Shown here piece by piece: positions 5,026 through 20,126 of a stretch of DNA of 24,939 nt. The stretch is from a virus, in the IMG/VR virus record IMGVR_UViG_3300029922_000287, positions 1 to 24,939 of that record. One strand, 5' to 3'. Position numbers and translations under genes: made by a program. The notes under the pieces are model-generated. The model was not told the origin of the DNA. It ran no database searches and saw nothing but the letters and a program-made list of their open reading frames with translations. The stretch's first letter is position 1. The number at the start of each line of letters is the position of its first letter.

Positions 5026-5706
5026 ATGTTCATTCTCCCAACAATGTCGCGTCCCGATAACGTGCGCGAGATATTGGGGCGGATAAAGGCGAGTGGGTGT
5101 ACGTCGAAGGGAATTGTATTTTTCGATGGTCAATATGACATGAGTTTGAATAACTGTGTTTTTCCTGAAGGATGGGTTTCTTTTTTGGGTGATAGAAACT
5201 ATGGCTGCATTGGTGCATTAAATAAAGTTTTTGAGATGTTTCCGAACGAACCTTGGTATGGATTTCTTGCCGATGATGAATTTCTATTAGAGGGTAATCC
5301 TGACGACATCGTGAAGGCTGCTGGATCGTGGGATATTGCACACGGATGGGATGATTTGCATAAGGGCGCGAGATTGCAGGGTTATGTAGTTTTTGGCGGT
5401 GAACTGGTTCGCGCTGTTGGGTATTTGGGCGTTAAAGAATGTTTTCATAATTTTGGGTTTGATTCTGCATGGGAATGGCTTTGTTCTCCCTACACAGTAT
5501 TGGGGGGATGCAACGCAGCTAAAATATATTTGGTTGATAGAGTCCGCATAGAGCATCGTCATGCTGGTTGGGGAAAATCTAAGAATGATGAATGCTACCA
5601 GAAGGGATTTTCAACATTTGAGGATGATCGCAAGAGATTTGTCGATTGGCAGAATGGGGATATGAGGAAAGCGGCGGAGAGGATAAAAAATGCAAGAAAA
5701 TCCTAG
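5026..5706 (+). CDS. GT-A-like glycosyltransferase, 226 aa
   Basis: This protein probably transfers a sugar from a nucleotide donor. It begins MFILPTMSRPDNVREILGRI, the start of a nucleotide-binding Rossmann-like half. It continues with SFLGDRNYGCIGALNKVFEM and has an acidic DxD-like motif LADDE (D83-D84-E85), expected to hold the metal ion and sugar nucleotide. The region around residues 140-185 (FGFDSAWEWL, then VRIEHRH) resembles the acceptor half, with His residues after the last strand. The start follows the preceding stop directly, with GGAG about 10 bases upstream. The length is short but sufficient for a single GT-A domain. It may modify the host envelope or the virion. Neither donor nor acceptor can be read from the sequence. 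Confidence 0.75.
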   Translation: MFILPTMSRPDNVREILGRIKASGCTSKGIVFFDGQYDMSLNNCVFPEGWVSFLGDRNYGCIGALNKVFEMFPNEPWYGFLADDEFLLEGNPDDIVKAAGSWDIAHGWDDLHKGARLQGYVVFGGELVRAVGYLGVKECFHNFGFDSAWEWLCSPYTVLGGCNAAKIYLVDRVRIEHRHAGWGKSKNDECYQKGFSTFEDDRKRFVDWQNGDMRKAAERIKNARKS

Positions 5707-5869
5707 AGAAAGATTCCCTGTTTGGGAGAAACAAACTCATAAAGAATTTATTTCTCAGTGTGTAGAATGGCATAAGAAAAATACACCTGAAGGGGATTTA
5801 AAAGATTCGATGAATTACCCAAAGCCAAAGCAACCGTTATTCATGCCCGTGGACAATATGCGCGGTTGA
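5690..5869 (+). CDS. Small hypothetical protein with possible -1 frameshift product
   Basis: The zero-frame product has 59 residues (MQENPRERFPVWEKQTHKEF onward), starting at an ATG with a strong GGAGAGG Shine-Dalgarno inside the end of the glycosyltransferase gene (17-base overlap). At codons 37-38 the mRNA reads T-TTA-AAA, a canonical -1 slippery heptamer. The -1 frame then stays open for 40 codons to a TAG at 5923-5925. The zero-frame tail (DSMNYPKPKQPLFMPVDNMR) looks less protein-like than the -1 tail (RFDELPKAKATVIHARGQYA and a charged helix). The true product may be the 78-residue fusion, made by programmed frameshifting or in an unmutated ancestor. Function unknown. Confidence 0.6.
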   Translation: MQENPRERFPVWEKQTHKEFISQCVEWHKKNTPEGDLKDSMNYPKPKQPLFMPVDNMRG

Positions 5870-5925
5870 AGGAAATTTTTAAGGATCAGTTACAGGAATT
5901 TATTAGAGACACAGCTAAACTTTAG
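5797..5925 (+). other. Candidate -1 ribosomal frameshift site and -1 extension
   Basis: TTTAAAA at 5797-5803 is in the exact phase X-XXY-YYZ relative to the gene at 5690 (codons TTA at 5798 and AAA at 5801). After a -1 slip, reading resumes at 5803 with AGA and continues for 40 codons to TAG at 5923. An AAGGGG sequence lies just upstream at 5790-5795. I see no strong hairpin downstream. A single-base deletion or a sequencing error would look the same. Confidence 0.5.
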
Positions 5926-5937
5926 TACAATATCTAA
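5919..5937 (+). promoter_or_regulatory. Repeated 19-bp element, copy 1 (before connector unit)
   Basis: ACTTTAGTACAATATCTAA occurs here and, with one mismatch, at 9733-9751. Both copies stand in short intergenic gaps before major structural transcription units. This copy contains a TACAAT -10-like hexamer, but no good -35 is seen. It may be a phage-specific promoter or RNA-processing site. Confidence 0.5.
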
Positions 5938-5993
5938 AATCTATTGAGTTTGTTAAACTACCACCCAAATTAACTTTTTGCGTGGGAATTTCT

Positions 5994-6215
5994 ATGGGCT
6001 TTGGCGGATCAACCCCCTCTTATACCCCTCCGCCAGCGGCTCCACCTATCGCCGCACCTGCGACCGTTGCGACATCATCTATGGCGTCTGCTCAGCAAAA
6101 ACAACTCAATGCAACTGAAGCCGCAGCACAAGATGTTGGTACGTCAGGGGGCGCTCAGGGTGTGTCACCTCAGAGCGTAACTACGGGGAAATCTACGCTC
6201 GGAGGCGTTCAGTGA
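5994..6215 (+). CDS. Small Pro/Ala/Gln-rich protein, 73 aa
   Basis: The ATG at 5994 is preferred over a GTG four codons upstream because GTGGGA lies about 6 bases before it. The N-terminus MGFGGSTPSYTPPPAAPP is followed by an Ala/Gln/Ser-rich stretch and a Gly-rich end (SGGAQGVSPQSVTTGKSTLG). It is low-complexity and likely disordered. Small proteins with a GFGG-Pro-Tyr start are often encoded beside podovirus connector genes, but their role is not known to me. The stop at 6213-6215 immediately precedes the connector start, so the two are translationally linked. It could be a minor virion or assembly factor. Confidence 0.65.
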   Translation: MGFGGSTPSYTPPPAAPPIAAPATVATSSMASAQQKQLNATEAAAQDVGTSGGAQGVSPQSVTTGKSTLGGVQ

Positions 6216-6216
6216 G

Positions 6217-8043
6217 ATGGAATTAGTTGATTCCATCAGTCACTATATAAAAAGCTCGCCCTTACTCTTGGCGCAGCAAGCCCCTACGCAAGGCAAAAAA
6301 CCTAATTTTATGCCTGAAGATGTTTGGGTTTCGACTTACGACCATCTGTCAGCCAAACTAAACTCTCTTTATGCATGGCGACAAACTTGGTGGAGTACGA
6401 ACTGGAATGATATTGCTAGGTATATAGCACCGAGGCGTTCTCTTTTTCTCACGCAAGGTTCTGGCGGTCTTCCCACGCCCAATTCCATGATGCGCGGCAT
6501 TCCGATTAATAATCAAATTGTTGATCCTGCTGCAACATTAGCTTTGCGGTATTGCGCTGGTGGTATGGCTTCAAACTTGGCAGGGCCACAACGTCCTTGG
6601 TTTAAGGTTATTCCACTGATGCAGGGTGTTGAACTTGATGATAATGCGCGGCAATGGATTGAGAATACCGAAAACCGTATTTATGGCGTTCTTTCAATTT
6701 CAAATTTTTATAATCAATTCGTTCAGGAATGCGAAGATATTGCTTCGTATGGCACATCCCCTGCAATTATTTATGAGGATGAAGAAAATGTTATTCGTGT
6801 GCATGTTCCTTGTGTTGGCGAATATTATCTTGATGTGGATGCCTCCAACCGAGTGATCGGACTTTATCGTTTAGTCTTGATGACAGTTGAACAGCAAGTC
6901 GATTTCTTTGGAATTGATAATGTTTCAGAGGCTGTTGCGAAATTATGGAATGGTAAGGGCGCGGGATTACAAAACGAAAGTATTATTGCCCATGCGATTG
7001 AGCCTAATTATGCGGTTGGACAAAACAAAGATTGGAAATTGCCCGGTGGATTTCCGTGGCGCGAAGTTTACTGGTATTACGGTGAGGCTAACAAACAGCC
7101 ACTAGCAACTCGTGGATATTGGGACAAGCCCTTCAATGCTTCGCGTTGGGCGACACAGGGCAACGATGCCTACGGTCGCTCGCAGGGTATGGATGTATTG
7201 CCGGATGTTAAGCAGTTGCAAGTGATGACACGACGTATGGCCGAGGCTATTGAAAAAATGGTAAGGCCACCGCTTATTGCCGATGAAAAGCTGAAAAATC
7301 AACCTGCTTCTGGGCTTCCTGGCCATGTGACGTTTATGCCGGGGCTTGATGCTCATAATGGAATGCGCTCGATTTATAACGTGAATCCTGATGTAAATGC
7401 GCTAGCTCAGAATATAGAAAAAATTACTGATCGTATTAATAAAGGATTTTTCAAAGATATTTTCATGGCGATCTCTGATCTTAAAGGCGATCAAAGAAGT
7501 GCTACTGAGATAAACGCCCGTAGAAGTGAAGCAATGCAAGTAATGGGGCCGGTTGTTGAGAATCTTATTACTGAAAATCTTCGTCCAAAATTAAAGCGTA
7601 TTTTTTCGATTATGCAGCGCAAGAAACTGATTGATCCGATGCCGAAGTCGCTTCAAGGTTTGCCTATCGGGTTCAGCTTTGTAAGCACGTTGGCCTTAGC
7701 TCAGAAGAGCGCATCAATTGGAAGCATGGAACAAATGATTTCCATCATTTCTAATCTTATTCCTTCCTTTCAAGAAGCTAAGGACAAGGTGAATATAGAT
7801 ATTCTAATCGACGAAATGGGCGAAATGCTTGGTACGCCTCCGACTATATTGTTCGATGCCGACCATGTTGCCAAGGTTCGGGCCGGTCGTGCACAAGTTC
7901 AGCAACAACAAATGCAGCAACAGCAATTGCATAATGCCGCTAGTACGGCAGAGACTGCTAGTAATGCGGCCCAGAATTTGTCTGCAACCCAGATTGGCGG
8001 GGGCGCGTCGGCACTTTCTGCGTTAATCGGGAATAAGCAATAA
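6217..8043 (+). CDS. Head-tail connector (portal) protein, T7 gp8-like
   Basis: The 608-residue protein has the hallmarks of the podoviral head-tail connector family. It has an N-terminal YDHLSAKLNSLYAWRQTWW helix region, then the IARYIAPRRS segment. The conserved AGGMASNLAGPQRPWFKV sits around residues 113-130. A stem region IEKMVRPPLIADEKLKN follows, and then the crown helix SATEINARRSEAMQVMGPVV. The C-terminus is Gln/Ala-rich (VQQQQMQQQQLHNAAS), as in many connectors. Twelve copies would form the channel through which TerL pumps DNA and to which the adaptor at 14230 binds. The ATG at 6217 follows the previous stop by one base. Its Shine-Dalgarno is weak, so coupling to the upstream gene is likely. 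Confidence 0.93.
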   Translation: MELVDSISHYIKSSPLLLAQQAPTQGKKPNFMPEDVWVSTYDHLSAKLNSLYAWRQTWWSTNWNDIARYIAPRRSLFLTQGSGGLPTPNSMMRGIPINNQIVDPAATLALRYCAGGMASNLAGPQRPWFKVIPLMQGVELDDNARQWIENTENRIYGVLSISNFYNQFVQECEDIASYGTSPAIIYEDEENVIRVHVPCVGEYYLDVDASNRVIGLYRLVLMTVEQQVDFFGIDNVSEAVAKLWNGKGAGLQNESIIAHAIEPNYAVGQNKDWKLPGGFPWREVYWYYGEANKQPLATRGYWDKPFNASRWATQGNDAYGRSQGMDVLPDVKQLQVMTRRMAEAIEKMVRPPLIADEKLKNQPASGLPGHVTFMPGLDAHNGMRSIYNVNPDVNALAQNIEKITDRINKGFFKDIFMAISDLKGDQRSATEINARRSEAMQVMGPVVENLITENLRPKLKRIFSIMQRKKLIDPMPKSLQGLPIGFSFVSTLALAQKSASIGSMEQMISIISNLIPSFQEAKDKVNIDILIDEMGEMLGTPPTILFDADHVAKVRAGRAQVQQQQMQQQQLHNAASTAETASNAAQNLSATQIGGGASALSALIGNKQ

Positions 8044-8064: not shown

Positions 8065-8093
8065 TTGACCACTACCAGTTGTGTTGATATACC
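8065..8093 (+). promoter_or_regulatory. Weak candidate promoter after the connector gene
   Basis: TTGACC (8065-8070) is followed 17 bases later by TATACC (8088-8093). The -35 is good and the -10 weak. It lies in a 78-base gap before the gene at 8122 and could start a transcript for the small head-region genes, but read-through from upstream is equally possible. Confidence 0.35.
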
Positions 8094-8121
8094 TTGGTCT
8101 ATCAATTGGCGGTATGTTCTC

Positions 8122-8358
8122 ATGAAAATCAAGGTAGACCAGAACGTCCAGCGTACGCAGGTCATAGTAGCCGTGGAGCTTTTGGAGGCTTTGAATCAGG
8201 CGTCCGGAGGTTGCGAACAAATGACTTTTCAACGCCGCGATCCGCGTTTTTTGCTCATGCGGGATGGACTGGAAGCTTTAAAGCAATTCTGTATTGCGAC
8301 GTTACCGAAGAGTATTCGGAAGGGCGAGAGAGAAAAGAAAGTGATACTTGTAAAATGA
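8122..8358 (+). CDS. Small hypothetical protein, 78 aa
   Basis: I chose ATG 8122 because GGCGG precedes it at suitable spacing and the in-frame codons upstream cross a possible promoter. The protein (MKIKVDQNVQRTQVIVAVEL onward) has a strand-helix start and a basic end (KSIRKGEREKKVILVK). No motif is recognised. It overlaps the next gene by ATGA. Its place between connector and scaffold suggests a minor assembly or head-associated protein. Confidence 0.6.
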   Translation: MKIKVDQNVQRTQVIVAVELLEALNQASGGCEQMTFQRRDPRFLLMRDGLEALKQFCIATLPKSIRKGEREKKVILVK

Positions 8359-18756: not shown

Positions 18757-19214
18757 CCCTCAACGAACCAACAATCGTCAAAACAACCGTTGAGCATATC
18801 AGGCTTCTTTGTGCCAACATGCGTGATGACGATCTACAGGAAGCCAAGGATGATGGCATCACGCCCTTTAAAGCTTTATGGCGCAGTTATCGGAATGCTG
18901 AATTTTGCCATTCGTGCTTTATTGGCGATAGGATTATGGCAATTGGCGGCCTAGACGGCTCTGTGCTTGGTTTTGTTGGCCGTCCTTGGCTTGTGACATC
19001 TAAAGTAGCCGATGAATACCCTTTTGTTTTTGCTCTACTATATAGACGCGAGACGCATAAAATGTTAAAACAATACCGTGTGTTGGAACGGTATGTCGGC
19101 ATGAAGTACGTCAAAACAATCAAGCTTATGAAGATCGTAGGTTTCAAAGAGCGTGAGGTTGTTCCGGCCAAGAGCGGAATGCTTGTACGGCTTGAGATGG
19201 AGGCGGTGGCATGA
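18753..19214 (+). CDS. Internal virion protein A-like (T7 gp13-like), 153 aa
   Basis: The protein has the GNAT-like outline of the T7 gp13 family. It has an N-terminal VEHIRLLCANMRDDDLQEAK segment, a strand CFIGDRIMAIGGLDGSVLGF, a GRPWLVTSKVADEYPFVFA region, and YVKTIKLMKIVGFKEREVV near the end. The usual acetyl-CoA loop (Q/R-x-x-G-x-G/A) is not evident, so it is probably not an active acetyltransferase, as expected for gp13. It is the first of the ejection-module genes and overlaps the endonuclease stop (ATGA). gp13-type proteins help to assemble the internal core or tail. Confidence 0.75.
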   Translation: MTLNEPTIVKTTVEHIRLLCANMRDDDLQEAKDDGITPFKALWRSYRNAEFCHSCFIGDRIMAIGGLDGSVLGFVGRPWLVTSKVADEYPFVFALLYRRETHKMLKQYRVLERYVGMKYVKTIKLMKIVGFKEREVVPAKSGMLVRLEMEAVA

Positions 19215-19672
19215 GTGTGGTTATTAGGAAGTGTACGGTTGGGGAGATTGAGGCCGCATCAAATTTCCCTGATCTTTTGGCCGAATACGCGGCAGAATTA
19301 GTGGTTGATGGTGCGCCTCCGTTCTCTGCGAAAATGGAGATGTATCATATCCTAGAGAATGCAGGAGCTTTGCAGGCTATTGGGGCTTATCTCGAAGATT
19401 TGCTTGTTGGCTTTGTGACAGTGCTGGTGTCGATTTTGCCCCATGTCGGCGTCCTTATGGCAGTTACGGAAAGCCTGTTTGTCGCAAAAGAACATCGTAA
19501 AACTGGGGCTGGATTAAAACTTATCAAAGCCGCAGAGAATTGTGCACAAGAACGTGGTACAAATCGCATATTTATTAGTGCGCCTTTTGGCGGTAATCTG
19601 GCTGAGGTTTTGCCCCATGTTGGCTATGTAGAAACCAATCGTGTATTTTTTAGGAGTTTAGCAAATGTCTAA
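19211..19672 (+). CDS. GNAT-family acetyltransferase-like protein, 153 aa
   Basis: The central region TESLFVAKEHRKTGAGLKLI followed by KAAENCAQERGTNRIFISAP is a good GNAT motif A: a strand, then R-K-T-G-A-G in place of the pyrophosphate-binding Q/R-x-x-G-x-G/A, then a helix. The closing strand-loop GGNLAEVLPHVGYVETNRVF also fits GNAT ends (GY near the C-terminus). Unlike the neighbouring gp13-like protein, the cofactor loop appears intact, so acetyltransferase activity is possible. The start overlaps the previous stop (ATGA) and the end overlaps the next gene by 8 bases. The substrate is unknown; it may also be a structural relative. Confidence 0.75.
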   Translation: MSVVIRKCTVGEIEAASNFPDLLAEYAAELVVDGAPPFSAKMEMYHILENAGALQAIGAYLEDLLVGFVTVLVSILPHVGVLMAVTESLFVAKEHRKTGAGLKLIKAAENCAQERGTNRIFISAPFGGNLAEVLPHVGYVETNRVFFRSLANV

Positions 19673-20126
19673 TTTGGCTATTTCTGAAAATCATATTTCA
19701 ACCATGAGCGAAGTGGCTATTAACAAAGTACGCCAATACGAAGCTTTGGTTCTTAGTGTTCCGCAGACTAAGATCCCAACACATCACCTTCTTCATGCGG
19801 GGATGTATTCTAGAACAATTATGATACCTGCTGGTAATACACTGACTGGCGTGCTGATGAAAATTTCAACGATACTTATTCTGTCTGGCGATTTTATTCT
19901 TTTTGCTGGTGACGAAGCTGTAAAGCTAAGCGGATATAATGTTTTGGCTGGTTCGCCTAATCGTAAACAAGCTGGTATTGCCATAACCGATACATGGGCA
20001 ACAATGTTATTCCCAACAAATGCTAAGACTGTTGAGGAAGCGGAGAATGAATTTACTGATGAGGGTAATATCCTCTGGTCGCGTTACGATGATGCGATAA
20101 ATCATGTTACTATTACGGGGCAATAA
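19665..20126 (+). CDS. Cupin-like conserved phage protein, 153 aa
   Basis: The protein shows a strand-rich core that resembles a cupin or small beta barrel: THHLLHAGMYSRTIMIPAGN, then TLTGVLMKISTILILSGDFI, LFAGDEAVKLSGYNVLAGSP and NRKQAGIAITDTWATMLFPT. The end is acidic and conserved-looking (AKTVEEAENEFTDEGNILWS). The H-x-H and Gly-Asp segments hint at a metal site. I recall similar proteins in podovirus tail and core regions, without a proven role. The ATG overlaps the previous gene by 8 bases, and the 3' end is two bases from the gp14-like start. Confidence 0.65.
   Translation: MSNLAISENHISTMSEVAINKVRQYEALVLSVPQTKIPTHHLLHAGMYSRTIMIPAGNTLTGVLMKISTILILSGDFILFAGDEAVKLSGYNVLAGSPNRKQAGIAITDTWATMLFPTNAKTVEEAENEFTDEGNILWSRYDDAINHVTITGQ

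Follow-up and report, generated by a model that had tools for sequence, protein, structure and literature searches.

An epsilon15-like podovirus with a candidate −1 programmed frameshift at a C_CCA_AAG heptamer of an ORFan accessory gene

The −1 frameshifts known in phages lie mostly in tail chaperone genes, and in T7 gene 10A/10B it is the major capsid gene of a podovirus that receives a −1 extension. In phage lambda G/GT, as in other tail-assembly-chaperone shifts, a small product ending at an early stop is accompanied by a −1 extended product, and the gene that we describe here would likewise give such a pair. The −1 frameshifting of heptamer motifs was measured in E. coli by Sharma et al. 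2014 (PMC4066793). The top three motifs were C_CC.A_AA.G, G_GG.A_AA.G and A_AA.A_AA.G, with 54% frameshifting for C_CC.A_AA.G combined with the IS3 pseudoknot (PMC4066793), and the Atkins review also presents C_CCA_AAG as highly shift-prone in E. coli (PMC5009743). In cassettes of the IS3/IS911 type, a hairpin conforming to empirical rules begins 4-10 nt past a motif of the NNNAAAG class (PMC4066793), and the same arrangement is predicted at the locus studied here.

The window, i.e. the whole stretch of DNA analysed, is a viral record of 24,939 bases from IMG/VR. Its portal protein (gene at 6217-8043) is ~30-35% identical to the portals of epsilon15-type podoviruses and of other phages, and matches the PHROG family phrog_332 (1.7e-113). 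Upstream of the portal gene lies a small accessory gene whose zero-frame ORF (5690-5869, + strand; ATG at 5690, stop TGA at 5867-5869) codes for 59 aa. We tentatively propose that two products are made by −1 frameshifting from this gene of an epsilon15-like podovirus. Its start overlaps by 17 nt the end of a glycosyltransferase-like accessory gene (5026-5706, + strand; PHROG phrog_14945, E 1.4e-10), and an SD-like GGAGAGG stands immediately 5′ of its ATG. Downstream, before the portal gene, comes the gene of a conserved small protein (5994-6215, + strand), which is also open from GTG 5982 and is 62% identical in the relatives L003 and L004. The closest phages (portal 72-81%) lack the small accessory gene; the terminase-portal segment, a variable slot, holds different small genes in each close relative.

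The phage relatives of the glycosyltransferase-like gene in the annotated collection are only 21 Streptomyces phage records (24-31% identity), which is odd for an epsilon15-like podovirus, and none were found in viral contigs. The small pre-portal protein has at its C-terminal end a TGK..TLGG-like motif, with similar ends in relatives and in epsilon15 gp3. Further along the window, a GNAT-like gene and a gene of 153 aa stand in tandem (19211-20126); by eye, they are homologous to the pair of genes situated between terminase and portal in the Manatee Spring podovirus ctQRb9 (5197-6107), relative to which they appear to have moved. Limnohabitans phage DC33 (PQ492659.1) has a portal protein of podovirus type although its record places it in Inoviridae, a taxonomy line that looks wrong. 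Finally, a search of bacterial genomes with the portal yielded no prophage.

The sequence-only reading had proposed that two reading frames of this gene are joined at a T_TTA_AAA heptamer (5797-5803, + strand), and we could confirm its description of the region. The heptamer is in phase with ATG 5690, TTA being codon 37 and AAA codon 38; an AAGGGG lies just upstream at 5790-5795; no rule-conforming hairpin follows; and the −1 frame is open for 40 codons past the heptamer up to TAG 5923-5925, giving a fusion of 78 aa. This −1 frame, which would provide the C-terminal tail of the fusion, is preceded by TGA 5788-5790 and is open over 5791-5925 (+ strand). The N-terminal part of the gene has a codon score of 0.116 in the zero frame versus −0.53 and −0.79 in the other two. 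A separate start within the −1 frame was rejected, only ATT and a late TTG being on offer.

Codon usage was tabulated from 19 larger genes in the window; by this table, the 40 codons of the −1 frame score 0.153 per codon, a level attained by 73.5% of true gene stretches. Among 26,465 off-frame stretches of 40 codons from the same genes, 16% are open, and a score of at least 0.153 is reached by 1.9% of the open stretches and 0.3% of all; frame-specific controls match the tail in 0.08% of cases at offset 1 and in none at offset 2. When the region was shuffled 5000 times with its dinucleotides preserved, 6% of the shuffles were open and 0.02% (0.0002) were open and equally good. The site was picked for its open frame, so a look-elsewhere correction is due (a handful of such heptamers occur in small ORFs), which leaves ~1-2% under the stricter control. 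The −1 frame has no stop across the heptamer and remains coding-like past the zero-frame stop. The 18 codons beyond this stop score 0.237, approximately the on-frame median, and an open frame with an equally good score occurs in 0.8% of off-frame stretches. Since it has the codon usage of this phage, and in a degree rare among off-frame stretches and shuffles, the −1 tail is probably coding. The earlier proposal that this tail is part of a real protein is in this respect favoured by codon statistics; the slip site that came with it, TTTAAAA, was probably the wrong choice.

These figures bear on the reading in which the gene is the 59-aa zero-frame ORF alone, the −1 frame being open by chance and nothing being joined. 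Such a coincidence is in line with a survey of ORFs of at least 50 aa called mechanically in a set of phage loci, where 2504 of 4805 have a −1 extension of at least 15 codons, with the frequency of in-phase heptamers, and with the codon score of the zero-frame tail, which is also coding-like (0.13). We nevertheless consider it unlikely, given how the −1 tail is composed, especially past the zero-frame stop, and given that an end at 5869 leaves a gap of 124 nt before the next gene (ATG 5994) within a tightly packed cluster. AlphaFold2 also argues against it, predicting two helices for the −1 piece (pLDDT 84-89 over the second half) and no structure for the zero-frame tail (pLDDT 54-58), although these are single-sequence models of two single-frame pieces and as such weak evidence.

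When the whole window was scanned for in-phase heptamers, with any X and Z allowed, a second one emerged in the same overlap, which the sequence-only reading had missed: C_CCA_AAG at 5818-5824 (+ strand), 21 bases past TTTAAAA, in phase (TAC CCA AAG) and followed 14 codons later by the zero-frame stop. C_CCA_AAG and T_TTA_AAA are thus both in-phase slippery heptamers. From codon usage, C_CCA_AAG is expected 0.0013 times in the 25-codon overlap; 7126 codons contain 3 top-three motifs (~1% per 25 codons) and 12 motifs of the wider efficient set (~4% per 25 codons). In comparison, in-phase X_XXY_YYZ heptamers in which Y is A or T number 22 in 6917 codons of the phage, and the TTTAAAA heptamer by itself is not beyond chance. 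U_UU.A_AA.A lies outside both the 18 selected motifs and the high-efficiency rule established in E. coli, whereas U_UU.A_AA.G is in both and U_UU.A_AA.U is in the efficient list (PMC4066793). All these motif efficiencies are E. coli values and may not be those of the host, with its own tRNAs.

We also asked codon usage where the frame changes. The switch-point likelihood forms a plateau of about 10 codons, from ~5806 to 5836, and lies 0.26 nats from the best point after CCCAAAG (5824) and 1.99 nats after TTTAAAA (5803), which makes a switch at CCCAAAG 5.6-fold likelier. Between 5804 and 5824 the zero frame scores better (0.212 versus −0.053 for the −1 frame), and between 5824 and 5865 the −1 frame does (0.165 versus 0.089 for the zero frame). 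Codon statistics mildly prefer a switch at CCCAAAG, and a lesion anywhere on the likelihood plateau fits the codon data as well.

Programmed −1 frameshifting at T_TTA_AAA, with AAGGGG as stimulator, would open the same −1 frame from an in-phase heptamer, and an SD-like sequence does adjoin it. This element, AGGGG (5791-5795, + strand), ends 3 nt ahead of the second base of TTTAAAA, a spacing that, according to the counting method, is just at the published minimum or below it. Moreover, an in-phase TTTAAAG is also present in the terminase gene, where no plausible extension goes with it. In-phase heptamers being common, the motif being off the efficient list and a hairpin being absent, TTTAAAA is weak evidence for a slip site, and with its 5.6-fold deficit in likelihood we regard frameshifting there as very improbable. 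CCCAAAG is the better slip-site candidate and the likeliest join.

Downstream of CCCAAAG, a hairpin of 38 nt is predicted at 5831-5868 (+ strand; stem CAACCGU/GCGGUUG, −8.9 kcal/mol). Its 7-bp stem, which contains an inner loop, begins 7 nt past the heptamer (6-nt spacer), and part of the zero-frame stop lies within its 3′ arm. The hairpin rules derived from IS3 place the start 4-10 nt past the motif and call for a G-C first pair and at least 7.6 kcal/mol, with a threshold of 0.09 kcal/mol/nt for the energy excess (PMC4066793). The predicted hairpin satisfies 4/4 of these empirical rules. Over the 197 nt downstream, no other window of 38 nt is as strong per nt, and the excess is 0.148 kcal/mol/nt. 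Its energy is ordinary when compared with dinucleotide shuffles (z −0.2 to −0.3), and the hairpin rule is satisfied at 38% of the coding positions of the phage and in 15% of the segment shuffles, 4.5% being equally strong per nt. The pairing probability of the stem is 0.19 in the full transcript context, where another fold competes, and 0.84-0.93 without the upstream sequence. Removing everything 5′ of 5825 mimics a ribosome positioned on the site, and the probability then rises to 0.93. An SD-like stimulator, which is an optional feature, was not found at the published spacing of 6-17 nt upstream of CCCAAAG.

Among the 2504 surveyed ORFs with a −1 extension, an efficient motif falls in the overlap of 58 and a top-three motif in that of 21 (0.8%), some of these being near-identical copies and some perhaps real. 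Three ORFs (0.12%) have both a top-three motif and a hairpin, so the combination occurs in ~0.1% of comparable ORFs. Two other heptamers were noted along the way. In the gene at 8065-8358, an in-phase T_TTA_AAG (8277-8283) has a rule-conforming hairpin, and its −1 frame enters the downstream ORF up to 8588; it is not kept in the relatives G002 and G006 and is therefore probably due to chance. In L003 and L004, an in-phase G_GGA_AAG at ~4772, near the end of the small pre-portal gene, comes with a hairpin and a 53-codon −1 extension; it is probably explained by a conserved Gly-Lys in the pre-portal protein, and the window's own copy of the gene has GGGAAAT, out of phase.

The homologue search that the sequence-only reading had called for gave chance matches only. 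The 78-aa fusion at TTTAAAA was compared with phages, plasmids, viral contigs, genome contigs, PHROGs, Pfam, NCBIfam and the PDB, and the fusion at CCCAAAG with phages, PHROGs and Pfam, again with nothing beyond chance; in these searches, no relatives of either fusion, of either half or of the zero-frame protein were found. Likewise, an exact-DNA scan that allowed 0-8 bases where the frames join at TTTAAAA retrieved no copy, and Rfam gave no credible match. A Pfam match to EAD1 (E 0.02, below the cut-off) was taken as chance, and a 'PLWELLTHKEF' motif seen in phage proteins of ~200 aa, when viral contigs were searched with degenerate DNA patterns, was rejected, as the likeness ends after a dozen residues.

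As no relatives were found, a frame lesion has to be retained as a rival. A one-base loss within 5791-5866, either a mutation of the lineage or a metagenomic assembly error, would have broken an accessory gene of ~78 aa, and the heptamers would be coincidental. This reading, to which we give a little less weight than to recoding at CCCAAAG, explains two coding-like halves in adjoining frames without any mechanism. It also agrees with the flat likelihood of the switch point, and the loss would be tolerable, as the slot is variable and relatives do without the gene. On the other hand, it leaves to coincidence (~0.1-1% by chance) that the overlap contains a top-three motif and, after it, a hairpin that obeys the rules. 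Furthermore, the contig is not error-rich: the window's other conserved genes align to G002 or G006 without any visible frame break. Finally, the favoured switch points do not coincide with the homopolymers most liable to indels, GGGG (5792-5795) and AAAA (5800-5803).

A priori, a functional frameshift in a non-tail gene is less likely than a lesion or chance. Together, motif and hairpin shift these odds roughly 50- to 100-fold, before any discount for the several features examined; the weights that we give to the four readings are our own judgement and no computed result. On balance, we put forward CCCAAAG as a candidate site of −1 programmed frameshifting in an ORFan accessory gene, a proposal that we make with reserve. 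The reading frames, the motif with its phase, the predicted hairpin and the coding-like −1 tail are seen in the sequence; from them we infer slippage and both products, and any role of the protein would be inferred too. Ribosomes would start at 5690 and most would end at 5869, yielding the 59-aa protein. Some would slip at C_CCA_AAG, the tRNAs on CCA and AAG re-pairing on CCC and AAA, and slippage would be aided by the hairpin whose stem begins at 5831. The slipped ribosomes would end at 5925, yielding a 78-aa protein with a predicted helical C-terminus (MQENPRERFPVWEKQTHKEFISQCVEWHKKNTPEGDLKDSMNYPK + AKATVIHARGQYARLKEIFKDQLQEFIRDTAKL).

If true, this would be one of the rare −1 frameshifts that belong neither to tail genes nor to transposons; it would lie in an accessory gene that changes fast, and annotation pipelines would truncate such a protein. 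It would also show that one may settle on a wrong site by taking whichever in-phase heptamer comes first. If false, the locus is a good example of an ORFan frame lesion that mimics recoding.

Compared with the known systems, the gene is not placed like tail assembly chaperone G/GT, which in long-tailed phages stands between the major tail gene and the tape-measure gene. Unlike lambda G/GT, it is not beside a tape-measure gene, is carried by a podovirus, lies between terminase and portal, and is absent from the relatives examined. It also differs from the IS3/IS911 cassettes in that no pseudoknot is shown, no SD stands at the right spacing, no transposase is encoded and the hairpin is modest. 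A non-tail podovirus accessory gene with a strong C_CCA_AAG and a hairpin may have 59-aa and 78-aa forms, recoding having perhaps been adopted by a recently gained small gene. With T7 10A/10B it would share a −1 extension in a podovirus, here of an ORFan accessory gene and not of the major capsid gene.
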